Assembly (NCBI GenBank): GCA_024693225.1
Contig: JAILLI010000104.1
Span: 1 to 32,106, forward strand
Reading direction: 5' to 3'
Source: Lachnospiraceae bacterium
Lineage (GTDB): Bacteria; Bacillota; Clostridia; Lachnospirales; Lachnospiraceae
DNA length: 32,106 nt
The notes beneath the pieces were generated by a model. The model had not been told where the DNA came from. It was given only the letters and a program-made list of their open reading frames with translations, and ran no database searches. The position numbers and the translations under genes were made by a program. Shown here piece by piece: positions 1 to 4,618 of this stretch. The first letter of the stretch is position 1, and every line of letters begins with the position of its first letter.

Positions 1-633
1 CGTCCCTCCAGTCTCATTGAGATTATCATATGACAGCCTTATCCTGTATATCTCATTCTGTTCAACCGTACCCTCGGGATAGGCATCCGCTGCATCATAA
101 GTTGATACATAATTGATCTTGTCAAGCTCTTTAACGTCAAAAGTTTCGTGGATCTTGTAATTCCAGTCAAGATCCTTGTCTGTCTCAAGGAAAGTGAGCG
201 ATTTCTGAGTCCTGTAGTCCGTAAATACGGTCCTCTCCGCATAATCGGCATTGCCTGCTGCGTATAGTTCCGAACGCAGTCCCTTTAGACTCTCGAGTAT
301 CTTCTGGCGGTCGGACGATGTATTAGTATCACTTGCACCCGTTGTAAGGTTTTCCTTGATATTCGTAAATATCTGATCCGTCTGCTTGAGGGCGGTCTCT
401 GTAACATTGAGCCAGGCCTGGGCATCCGGGATGTTCTTCTTGTAATACTGGGTCAGCTGCGAGAGATTGGTATTGAGACGAAGGGCTCTTATAGCTACGA
501 CAGGATCATCCGAAGGTCTTGATATCACCTGCCCCGTTGCGATCTGCGTATTAAGTTTGTCTTCATTCAGTTTATTGATATTGATGTTGTTCTTGGTATT
601 AGACGTCATCATGGCGTTGGTGATCCGCATCAT
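1..633 (-). CDS. flgL: Flagellar hook-associated protein FlgL (hook-filament junction), N-terminal part; C-terminus lies beyond the window start
   Basis: Minus-strand reading from ATG at 633 gives MMRITNAMMTSNTKNNINI..., the typical FlgL N-terminus; SD cggagga upstream; lies after flgK in a flgM-flgN-flgK cluster; no stop inside window (hence absent from ORF track). Confidence 0.9.
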   Translation of the reverse strand, partial: MMRITNAMMTSNTKNNININKLNEDKLNTQIATGQVISRPSDDPVVAIRALRLNTNLSQLTQYYKKNIPDAQAWLNVTETALKQTDQIFTNIKENLTTGASDTNTSSDRQKILESLKGLRSELYAAGNADYAERTVFTDYRTQKSLTFLETDKDLDWNYKIHETFDVKELDKINYVSTYDAADAYPEGTVEQNEIYRIRLSYDNLNETGGT

Positions 634-812
634 ATCGGTGTCCTCCGTTTCAAAACATAAAAAAACCAGTCACAAACGGCGGATCTCCTTATCCTGCCTT
701 TTGTGAAACCATCAAGGGCGAACTCCGTTTCGCCATATGTCATGATCGCCGGGCGATCTTACCCGCCAGGGTGGTGTCTGAACGGGCTGTCTCCTATCAT
801 AATCTCTGATAT
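634..812 (-). promoter_or_regulatory. Structured 5' leader of flgL (consecutive hairpins, terminator-like stem, GGA hexaloops)
   Basis: Hairpins read directly (plus coordinates): 744-749/753-758 (GATCGC/GCGATC); 717-722/729-734 (GGCGAA-ACGGAG-TTCGCC on minus); 670-706 (TTTGTGA/TCACAAA + GGC/GCC + GGAT-AAGGAG-ATCC) followed on minus by CTGG and T7 at 659-665. Confidence 0.6.
670..706 (-). terminator. Terminator-like hairpin about 35 nt upstream of the flgL start codon (possible attenuator)
   Basis: 7 bp + 3 bp + 4 bp interrupted stem, then T7 tract (659-665) after a 4-nt spacer on the minus strand. Confidence 0.5.
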
Positions 813-818
813 ATCAGT

Positions 819-845
819 ATATCGTCACATATCGATCATATCTTA
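819..845 (-). promoter_or_regulatory. Putative sigma-28 (FliA/SigD) promoter for flgL
   Basis: Minus strand TAAG-N15-GACGATAT compared with consensus TAAA-N15-GCCGATAT; spacing exact. Confidence 0.6.
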
Positions 846-854
846 ACTGTACCA

Positions 855-987: not shown

Positions 988-2853
988 TCAAACCCCGGTC
1001 TGCAGTATCAGCCTGTCATAGATCTCCGTCATGATCTGTATCATCTTGGATGACAGATTGTAAGCCTCCTGGAACTTCACGAGATTGAGGGCCTCTTCAT
1101 CGTTATCTACACCCGAAACGCTCGTTCTCTGCCCAACTATAGCTCTTGAGATCTTGTCAAAATTGGAATAGAAATTATTGGCCGATTTTGCCCCAAGGGC
1201 AACGTCACTTGTCAGGCACTGCAGGAACTCTTCGGCAGAGCATCCCCTGTAGGTCATCTTGGACTTGTCGGTCCGAACCTCCATAAGGAGCTGTGTGATA
1301 TCCTGCGCATCCTGGCCCTGTGTGATATCCTTTGTCGTACCGAACAGATTCACATCCTTGACCATATCGGTATTGATATTAAAGTTTCCCGCCGTAAGCT
1401 GAAGGTAGTTATCACTTGTGGAATTGAAATACGTCATCTGATTCACGGCCGGAATATCGCAACCACTGTCATAATCATAACCGGCAAATTTATTTTCATC
1501 ACTGCCGCTCGTAAACAGCACCTGGGCCTGCTTGCCGTACTCATCCTGTGCAGATATCTCTATCCCGTTCATGGCCTGGGCAAAGCTTCTGACCCATTCA
1601 TTCATCTGGGCCTGATAATACGGAATTCCCTGATAATCGATATTAACGCCTATATAACAGTCCTTGCCGTTAAGACTTGATAAATCCGGTGTCCCGGCCT
1701 TTGCCGTAAATGTGTACTGTTTATTCTCATGGTCATAAGCCCAGCTGTCATATTTCACTTCCACGTTTCCGACAACGATCGTGCCTTCCATATTCATGGT
1801 AACCTTATTCATATCCGTCAGAAAATCATAGTTCGGATTAGACGGATCTATAGTCACTGTTACCGAATTAGTATTTGTAGAAACATACTCGCCTTTTGCC
1901 GAGAAGTTTTCCCCGTTATTACCGTCCCTTACCTCAATAAGTCCCTTGAGCTGTCCGCCGAGGCTTCCCCCGTAAAGGTTAAGCGGTATCCCGTTTAGGG
2001 AAATATCATAGAGTCCGTCTGCATCTGACTGGTTGACCTTCTCATCGCCTTTTCTGGCTACGCATTCCAGGCTTGAATACTCATAACCGTTAACCAGATT
2101 CTGACCGCCTGCGATGTCTACTATATATCTGTATATACCGGATTCTTCCGTTCCCCCTTCCGAAGTATAGATCGGGATCTCGGAAACCTTGACGTCGACT
2201 ATCTCCGACAGCTCATCGATCAGGAGATTTCTCTTGTCACGAAGCTCATTTGCCCTGACCTTGTTGACCTCTATGGTATTGATCTGCTTGCTGACCGTTG
2301 CTATCTCCGATGCCAGCGAATTGACCTGGTTTACCTTGTTCAGTATCTCGTTGTTCGCATCTGTCTGAAGACGCTGAAGAGATGTGGACAGACCGTTAAA
2401 GTATTCGGTAAGGCTCTTGCACTGAGACAGAAAGGCCGCCTTCTTCGTATCGTCGCCCGCACTCTTGTATACCTCATCAAGGGCATCGAACATATCCGAA
2501 AACACGACATTGAAGCCCTGAACATCATCGGTATCCGCAAAATAGTCCTCTATCTGGCGGTAATACTGCTGCTTGATATCGTATATCCCCTTGCTGGCAT
2601 TGTTCTGCCAGAATTTCAGGTCATAGTATTCATTCCTGATCTGGTCGATCGACTTCGTGTCCACGCCCGCTCCGGCCATACCGTATGAAGTATTGGTGCG
2701 CAGCGCATCAGCTGCCACCTGCTGTGCCTCCTGCCTGGTGTAGCCCTTGGTCTCAACGTTTGAGATATTGTTGCCGGTCACGTTAAGGGCCGCATTGGCA
2801 GCCTGCAATCCTGTGTATCCTATATTTAATCCGAAGAATTGTGAAGTACTCAT
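988..2853 (-). CDS. flgK: Flagellar hook-associated protein FlgK (second copy)
   Basis: MSTSQFFGLNIGYTGLQAANAALNVTGNNISNVETKGYTRQ N-terminal rod/hook-type motif; C-terminal VKFQEAYNLSSKMIQIMTEIYDRLI; start trimmed to ATG with AGGAGGT SD. Confidence 0.88.
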   Translation of the reverse strand: MSTSQFFGLNIGYTGLQAANAALNVTGNNISNVETKGYTRQEAQQVAADALRTNTSYGMAGAGVDTKSIDQIRNEYYDLKFWQNNASKGIYDIKQQYYRQIEDYFADTDDVQGFNVVFSDMFDALDEVYKSAGDDTKKAAFLSQCKSLTEYFNGLSTSLQRLQTDANNEILNKVNQVNSLASEIATVSKQINTIEVNKVRANELRDKRNLLIDELSEIVDVKVSEIPIYTSEGGTEESGIYRYIVDIAGGQNLVNGYEYSSLECVARKGDEKVNQSDADGLYDISLNGIPLNLYGGSLGGQLKGLIEVRDGNNGENFSAKGEYVSTNTNSVTVTIDPSNPNYDFLTDMNKVTMNMEGTIVVGNVEVKYDSWAYDHENKQYTFTAKAGTPDLSSLNGKDCYIGVNIDYQGIPYYQAQMNEWVRSFAQAMNGIEISAQDEYGKQAQVLFTSGSDENKFAGYDYDSGCDIPAVNQMTYFNSTSDNYLQLTAGNFNINTDMVKDVNLFGTTKDITQGQDAQDITQLLMEVRTDKSKMTYRGCSAEEFLQCLTSDVALGAKSANNFYSNFDKISRAIVGQRTSVSGVDNDEEALNLVKFQEAYNLSSKMIQIMTEIYDRLILQTGV

Positions 2854-2872
2854 GATACCTCCTGTCTGTTCA

Positions 2873-4618
2873 TCATCCCAGGCTTGAAAGGAGCCTCTCC
2901 AGCATATCATTGCATGCGGTTATATATCTGCTGGCTGCATTGTATGCATTCTGATATTTGATCATGTTCGTCAGCTCTTCGTTGGAAGAAACTCCCATTA
3001 TCGCATCCCTGCTGTCGGAAAGGTTATGTGTTGCGATCTGCTGGGCAGAGACTATGCTTGAATAAACGCTTCCTTCAGTTGCGACCTGTCCGACCATGGC
3101 TGCATAGTAATCCCTGTAACCGTACTGGATCGTCAGATCCGGTGACAGGCTTGAGAAGGGTTTCATGAAAGCTTCTGCAAGCGCATCCGCCTTGGCATGA
3201 TCGACCTCTCCCTGAAGAGTCATGAAGCCCGGTTCATCCTTTTCGCTTCCCGCAGCCTGTCCGAGAAGTGAAGGTGTCTTCTGAAGGTCGGGATTGATCT
3301 TCATGTTCGATACCGTGTACAACAGGTCTATAACTGTATGTGACGGCTTATCGTTTTCCGGAACATAACGGTAATATGTTGTTCCGCCATCGTCAATCTT
3401 TTCATATCTGGATGTTCCGAGACGGACAAAGAGTTCTTTCGGAAGGGTCTCATCTTCTTTATACTTGGGAAGAAGGCTGGGATCCTTGGGATCGGAAGCA
3501 TTATATGCATCTATGGCATCCTTTTCCCCCGTAAGTATGTTGTTCACTTCCGTCATAAGACTGTGGACCATCTGATCAAGCTCTGCCTGCACCTTCATCA
3601 CAATTGATTTGGAGGTGGGGATCAGATCCTGCGTTACATCCGTATTTGTAATATCGTCATGATACGTATACTTGCCGTTCATATATGTATCATAGCTCAT
3701 ATCGGTATAATTGGCTCTTCTGTCTCCCCTGCCAAGGATGACTGACTTGAGCTGCCCTATATCGGTATTATAATCGGTCGCGATCACTTCATTCCTGGCA
3801 AAAACCTCGGCATTCATATTCTGGGGCCATACAGGCGTATAAAAACCGGTACTCTCCTCAGCGATAGTATCTATATGAAAGACCCTGTCCCTAACCACAA
3901 AGGGTACACCTTCAAGTTCCACCTCAATGCCGCCGTCCGCATTTGTGGAATAAGATATCTTTGCAAGCCCCGAGAGCTCATCAAGTGCCTTGTTTCTGCG
4001 GTCACGGAGGTCATTTGCCTCCTGTACGCCTATCTCTTCCTTATGGATGGCTTCGTTAAAGGAATATATCTGGTCTCCGAGTTCATTGATCCTGTCAACA
4101 TACTCATTGACCCTTGCATTAAGATTATCCTGATATGCTGACAGACCGTTATATACAGCCTGTGCTCTTTCGAGGAACTGTGTTGATGTATTTATGAAAT
4201 ATCCTTTGGTGACCGCACTTAAAGGATCCTTCTGAAGCTCCTGGACCGAAGTCCACAGATCGGCGATCGAATCCTGGAACGCCACTCCGTCAAATTCCCC
4301 GAGAAGGGTCTCTATCTCAGTGGTGGTCTCCTGGCATACCTCGTAAAAATTAGACCTTCCGGTCTCCTTGCGATATGATTTGTCAAGGAAGTCGTCCCTT
4401 ACCTGACGCACCGTATCGTATTCGACCCCGAGGCCTATCTGCATCTTTGAAACTGCCGAATTCTTTATATTGTTATAGGACACGTCCGCATGAAGTGTCT
4501 GCTGCCTGACATATCCCGGTGTTTCGATATTTGAAAGATTGTGTGCTGTTGTATGAAGCGAATTCTGACTTGTCTGAAGTCCTGATGCTCCTACAAAAAG
4601 ACCGCTCATGAGCGACAT
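2873..4618 (-). CDS. flgK: Flagellar hook-associated protein FlgK (first copy)
   Basis: MSLMSGLFVGASGLQTSQNSLHTTAHNLSNIETPGYVRQ...; C-terminus MIKYQNAYNAASRYITACNDMLERLL. Confidence 0.9.
   Translation of the reverse strand: MSLMSGLFVGASGLQTSQNSLHTTAHNLSNIETPGYVRQQTLHADVSYNNIKNSAVSKMQIGLGVEYDTVRQVRDDFLDKSYRKETGRSNFYEVCQETTTEIETLLGEFDGVAFQDSIADLWTSVQELQKDPLSAVTKGYFINTSTQFLERAQAVYNGLSAYQDNLNARVNEYVDRINELGDQIYSFNEAIHKEEIGVQEANDLRDRRNKALDELSGLAKISYSTNADGGIEVELEGVPFVVRDRVFHIDTIAEESTGFYTPVWPQNMNAEVFARNEVIATDYNTDIGQLKSVILGRGDRRANYTDMSYDTYMNGKYTYHDDITNTDVTQDLIPTSKSIVMKVQAELDQMVHSLMTEVNNILTGEKDAIDAYNASDPKDPSLLPKYKEDETLPKELFVRLGTSRYEKIDDGGTTYYRYVPENDKPSHTVIDLLYTVSNMKINPDLQKTPSLLGQAAGSEKDEPGFMTLQGEVDHAKADALAEAFMKPFSSLSPDLTIQYGYRDYYAAMVGQVATEGSVYSSIVSAQQIATHNLSDSRDAIMGVSSNEELTNMIKYQNAYNAASRYITACNDMLERLLSSLG

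Follow-up and report, generated by a model that had tools for sequence, protein, structure and literature searches.

A conserved flgL leader with GGA hexaloops as a probable CsrA target in one Lachnospiraceae lineage

The window analyzed here, a 32,106-nucleotide (nt) stretch of DNA from a Lachnospiraceae bacterium (assembly GCA_024693225.1, contig JAILLI010000104.1), is a complete contig (G000:C131 in our collection) that terminates within the flagellar gene flgL. The leader of flgL, which is the subject of this analysis, spans 634 to about 812 on the minus strand (179 nt) and lies 3' of a sigma-28-type promoter, so that flgL transcription would start near 812. Two hairpins in the leader present ANGGA, the motif read by CsrA (PMC4894983), in loops of six nucleotides. 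The locus contains the following features:

1-633, minus strand: first 211 codons of flgL (Flagellin_N match), gene start at 633.
642-648, minus strand: ACGGAGG, the flgL Shine-Dalgarno sequence and a third ANGGA site, invariant in 12 of 12 genomes.
659-665, minus strand: run of seven U, seen in the sequence and absent in the relatives L014, L016 and L067.
670-706, minus strand: hairpin 2, an imperfect stem with the tip GGAT-AAGGAG-ATCC at 681-694 and the hexaloop AAGGAG at 685-690; compensatory changes in 9 of 13 pairs, loop A-N-GGA-N in 12 of 12 genomes.
717-734, minus strand: hairpin 1, GGCGAA-ACGGAG-TTCGCC, with the hexaloop ACGGAG at 723-728; 100% of cells paired and loop A-N-GGA-N in 12 of 12 genomes.
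738-812, minus strand: variable 5' segment of the leader, which holds the non-conserved ATAGGAGACA; in relatives about 15-25 nt or unrelated insertions.
819-846, minus strand: sigma-28-type promoter, TTAAG-N15-GACGATAT, a pattern match at 846-819.

The initial annotation of this sequence had placed a sigma-28-like promoter ahead of the leader and two GGA hexaloop hairpins within it. The promoter is found at 846-819, and most leader-bearing relatives carry one of this type at the equivalent place. Both hairpins lie where they had been assigned; the tip of the second is correct (681-694), but its stem is longer and imperfect, reaching from 670 to 706. Additional GGA motifs had been noted in the Shine-Dalgarno sequence AACGGAGGAC and in ATAGGAGACA, and both are present in the window leader. 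The Shine-Dalgarno site proved invariant, whereas ATAGGAGACA (about 786-797) belongs to a lineage-specific insertion between the promoter and hairpin 1, a stretch that differs widely among relatives and holds different insertions in several genomes.

On its own, the window leader is weak evidence. It folds more stably than its shuffles (179 nt, z-score -2.4), and two GGA hexaloop hairpins are only mildly unusual: at least two appear in 5.9% of dinucleotide shuffles of the leader, and one whose stem reaches 6 base pairs (bp) or more in 5.5%. A single sequence therefore proves little, and GC-rich hairpins could hold GGA by coincidence. No Rfam family scored above its gathering threshold in the window; the one snoRNA match (E 0.37) is a chance hit.

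To evaluate conservation, we gathered flgL orthologues from 37 genomes of the genus as well as from publicly available Lachnospiraceae contigs, most of which come from metagenome assemblies. The same leader is present in 12 genomes, all from one Lachnospiraceae lineage within the genus. With the structure fixed in advance on the basis of the consensus and the window sequence, 10 of 19 stem pairs show compensatory changes across these 12 sequences. The stems contain 27 double-changed cells, compared to 8.4 in shuffles; 96% of cells are paired, compared to 34-51% with slid partners; and the covariation score is 0.43 rather than 0.07-0.18. In both hairpins the loop columns read A / ACGT / G / G / A / variable: the A, G, G and A are invariant in the 12 genomes, and the second position, which the CsrA motif leaves open, takes all four bases (hypergeometric 3e-4 for the eight loop columns, a rough value). 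The expectation that orthologous leaders would keep both hairpins and their GGA loops is thus borne out, with covariation, in one lineage. This conservation confirms that the leader element is real. Stem covariation and a fixed ANGGA around a varying N are difficult to reconcile with coincidence, as is the recurrence of the same hexaloops before filament-stage genes described below, and we consider chance a very remote explanation.

The spacing of the sites is also informative. The distance from GGA to GGA is 35-39 nt between loops 1 and 2 and 38-46 nt between loop 2 and the Shine-Dalgarno sequence, and both fall within the 10-63 nt that one CsrA dimer can bridge (PMC7652899). The third ANGGA site, located in the Shine-Dalgarno sequence at bridging distance from loop 2, supports the reading of the leader as a CsrA target. 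In contrast, we found no sign of the 'switch' suggested initially: no alternative conserved fold is seen, and the Shine-Dalgarno sequence lacks a conserved pairing partner. A structural switch hiding it was rejected, as the number of its bases predicted to be paired varies from 1 to 5 of 5 across relatives. A short open reading frame through hairpin 1 (15 amino acids in the window) was also dismissed. It has no ATG in L014, L016 and L067, its frames stop at differing points, and no Shine-Dalgarno sequence precedes it.

The seven-U run shortly past hairpin 2, matched by 5-7 U within 8 nt in many relatives, raises the question of whether hairpin 2 is an intrinsic terminator or attenuator, such that the leader acts not on translation but on read-through into the downstream genes flgL-fliW-csrA, with CsrA or some other ligand perhaps involved. 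However, a terminator scan finds none at the leader, 4 nt separate the stem from the U run, and the run is gone in L014, L016 and L067 even though the hairpin and loops remain. Termination would also leave the invariant ANGGA loops and hairpin 1 unexplained, and we regard it as unlikely.

What follows flgL is visible in the relatives, where the order is flgK, leader, flgL, fliW, csrA, flaG, fliD and a fliS-like gene (called by its N-terminal sequence only). In all eight leader-bearing relatives whose contig continues, fliW and csrA directly follow flgL, in line with the location predicted for them at the outset, although the contig of the window itself ends too early. Gaps are short throughout flgL-fliW-csrA, with csrA starting 2 nt past the fliW stop, and a sigma-28 promoter-like site separates csrA from flaG. 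Given this gene order, the short gaps and the promoter-like site before flaG, the leader likely heads a flgL-fliW-csrA unit that would encode both CsrA and its antagonist FliW, and fliW and csrA are probably transcribed together with flgL. By sequence, CsrA of the relatives, 71 amino acids long in L068, resembles solved CsrA proteins, including a chain from entry 5dmb, which we take to be the structure of a CsrA-FliW complex.

Comparative tests on the leaders and the gene order support the initial proposal of a CsrA-responsive leader, with CsrA binding as a prediction. We hold it highly probable that the leader is a CsrA target through which CsrA represses translation. Based on the leader anatomy and on the established action of CsrA on the glgC, hag and flaA leaders (PMC7652899, PMC4894983), we infer CsrA binding and repression, how far the transcript reaches, and the feedback with its timing, as follows. 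A CsrA dimer would be anchored at one of the GGA hexaloops, reach across to the ANGGA within the Shine-Dalgarno sequence of flgL and keep ribosomes off; loop 2 is the likeliest anchor, and loop 1 would provide an additional high-affinity site. This repression would reduce CsrA and FliW as well, either by translational coupling or by decay of the mRNA; in Bacillus subtilis, CsrA translation is reported to be coupled to that of FliW (PMC6529632). Negative feedback on CsrA is expected because csrA and fliW are probably on the same transcript, and autoregulation of csrA through the flgL leader is a reasonable, if less secure, proposition. Upon flagellin export, free FliW would remove CsrA, and FlgL, FliW and CsrA would be made.

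Alternatively, the leader might serve mainly as a CsrA sponge, its hexaloops titrating CsrA off flagellin mRNAs, with control of flgL being minor. Two hexaloops of the high-affinity type in one leader fit such a role, and titration by the flaA leader of Campylobacter jejuni is documented (PMC4894983). Yet the ANGGA of the Shine-Dalgarno sequence never varies either and lies within bridging reach, an indication of control in cis, and flgL transcripts should be scarcer than those of flagellin. A predominant sponge role appears as improbable as termination; titration as such is compatible with repression of flgL and does not exclude it.

Several observations weigh against CsrA-mediated repression of flgL. 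The leader is confined to one lineage of the genus, and the other flgL genes lack it: in other genomes of the genus, the flgL matches (about 52-63% identity) mostly lie close behind flgK without this leader. A covariance-model search of 397 family genomes recovered the flgL leader in this genus only, with filters strict enough to lose weak matches; three weak matches (L134, L135 and L137) look like chance. In some single-sequence folds (L012 and L017), hairpin 2 is not the minimum-energy structure. In C. jejuni, deletion of csrA caused no protein change for several CsrA-bound flagellar leaders (PMC4894983), so that binding need not mean strong control. Finally, neither CsrA nor FliW was found in the 85%-complete assembly of the source genome. 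FliD is likewise missing from that assembly and the contig stops within flgL, so the lack of csrA and fliW is most likely an assembly gap rather than a true absence. The contig breaks inside flgL in three other leader-bearing genomes as well (G015, G020 and G043); together with the source genome, these drafts lose fliW-csrA at the break, which can mimic an absence of csrA.

We compared the proposed circuit to published CsrA systems, drawing on excerpts of the cited papers. The settings described there are flagellin leaders, csrA autoregulation in Escherichia coli and csrA within the motility loci of Roseburia and Eubacterium. In the CsrA-FliW network of C. jejuni, FliW is a protein antagonist of CsrA, as proposed for flgL, but the target is flagellin and binding to the flaA leader is proven, whereas here the target is flgL and, by gene order, fliW-csrA, and binding is predicted; the loops are 21 nt apart in the flaA leader, compared to 35-39 nt in the flgL leader (PMC4894983). 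The Hag-FliW-CsrA system of B. subtilis is, like the one here, Gram-positive, with the order flgL-fliW-csrA, and its hag leader resembles the flgL leader in having one site on the Shine-Dalgarno sequence and one upstream. Its CsrA target is hag, however, and the excerpts mention no CsrA leader on flgL-fliW-csrA (PMC7652899, PMC6529632). E. coli CsrA represses itself via several leader sites, one of them on the Shine-Dalgarno sequence (Yakhnin 2011, cited in PMC7652899), but that leader is csrA's own and the antagonists are small RNAs, whereas here flgL comes first, csrA third and the antagonist FliW is encoded within the same putative operon. Leptospira has a flgN-flgK-flgL-fliW-csrA operon, with the same order around csrA, and GGA hexaloops just before the flagellin start codons in the flaB3 and flaB4 leaders; the sites described in that excerpt are on flagellin genes, and it describes no flgL leader (PMC8668096). 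A literature search returned no CsrA leader on flgL-fliW-csrA, but most subscription papers were outside its scope and this absence is not proof.

To see where else such hexaloops occur, we searched the 100 nt preceding each gene start of the fetched loci for ANGGAN hexaloops on stems of at least 4 bp. Among these loci, which were chosen for their flagellar and DUF6033 genes and come from relatives that are not independent, hexaloops precede flaG in 12 of 13 cases, DUF6033 in 14 of 19, flagellin in 11 of 21, flgL in 7 of 29 and fliD in 3 of 9, compared to 6 of 173 other starts. Five of those six look like late flagellar genes, by a rough sorting on N-terminal motifs done after the matches were known. 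The Shine-Dalgarno sequence itself lies inside a hexaloop in flaG leaders and in many DUF6033 leaders. In C. jejuni CsrA pull-downs, flaG was strongly and flgL hardly enriched (PMC4894983).

DUF6033 (Pfam PF19498, function unknown) also came up through the flgL leader: two weak matches of its covariance model, in G012 of the same genus and G131 of another, lie in front of DUF6033 genes that have sigma-28-like promoters. Seventeen of the 21 DUF6033 leaders scored contain an ANGGAN hexaloop, compared to a shuffle mean of 0.39. The sigma-28-like promoters and hexaloop leaders suggest that DUF6033 is a late flagellar gene family under putative CsrA control; our literature search found no paper on it. 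Sigma-28-like promoters are seen at the DUF6033 loci L170-L195, including one in the source genome (L194, G000:C32), and these leaders often place the Shine-Dalgarno sequence in a second hexaloop.

Judging from the survey, CsrA may control a set of late flagellar genes in these motile gut bacteria, beyond flagellin alone. A broader proposal, which we judge evenly balanced, is that these Lachnospiraceae have a filament-stage CsrA regulon (flagellins, flaG, fliD, flgL and DUF6033) and that in one lineage CsrA represses an operon encoding itself and FliW. If so, DUF6033 would be marked as a late flagellar gene; the hexaloop survey already gives it a likely place in flagellar biology. An autogenous loop would also close around a homeostasis circuit of the B. 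subtilis type and set the dosage of CsrA and FliW. The Hag-FliW-CsrA circuit of B. subtilis is reported to depend on exact ratios, and further unknown systems restricting FliW and CsrA levels have been predicted (PMC6529632); the putative CsrA leader on flgL-fliW-csrA is a direct candidate for such a system in a related circuit. As predicted from sequence, the flgL leader is a new CsrA target of a known kind, at a notable position in the circuit.

The leaders of flaG and flagellin show further regularities. In the csrA-flaG gap of relatives (L068-L074), flaG is preceded by a sigma-28 promoter-like site of its own and by a conserved hexaloop, TCAC-AYGGAG-GTGA, in which the Shine-Dalgarno sequence lies. 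Flagellin leaders in the source genome (L132, G000:C24) and at L122, L124 and L126 combine a sigma-28-like promoter with hexaloops such as TCGGC-AGGGAA-GCCGA and CTTACAGC-ANGGAW-GCTGTAAG. The main flagellin type carries AAAGGAA (AAAGGTA in one sequence) plus the Shine-Dalgarno sequence AAGGAGG; in the second type (three sequences), an A-N-GGA loop sits in a nearly invariant stem.

Upstream of the flgL promoter, two different flgK genes lie in succession (988-4618), an arrangement also reported in Roseburia and Eubacterium (PMC3720852). The interval from flgK to the promoter holds a long imperfect hairpin (TTTGAAAACCGGGT...ACCCGGTTTTCAAA, 857-963), a dispersed repeat that we treated as unrelated; 16 stretches of the source genome match it, many of them at or near contig ends. 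Unrelated insertions are present between flgK and hairpin 1 in the window and in L010, L013, L018 and L038, and for this reason the flgK-flgL gap seems to be an insertion hot spot.
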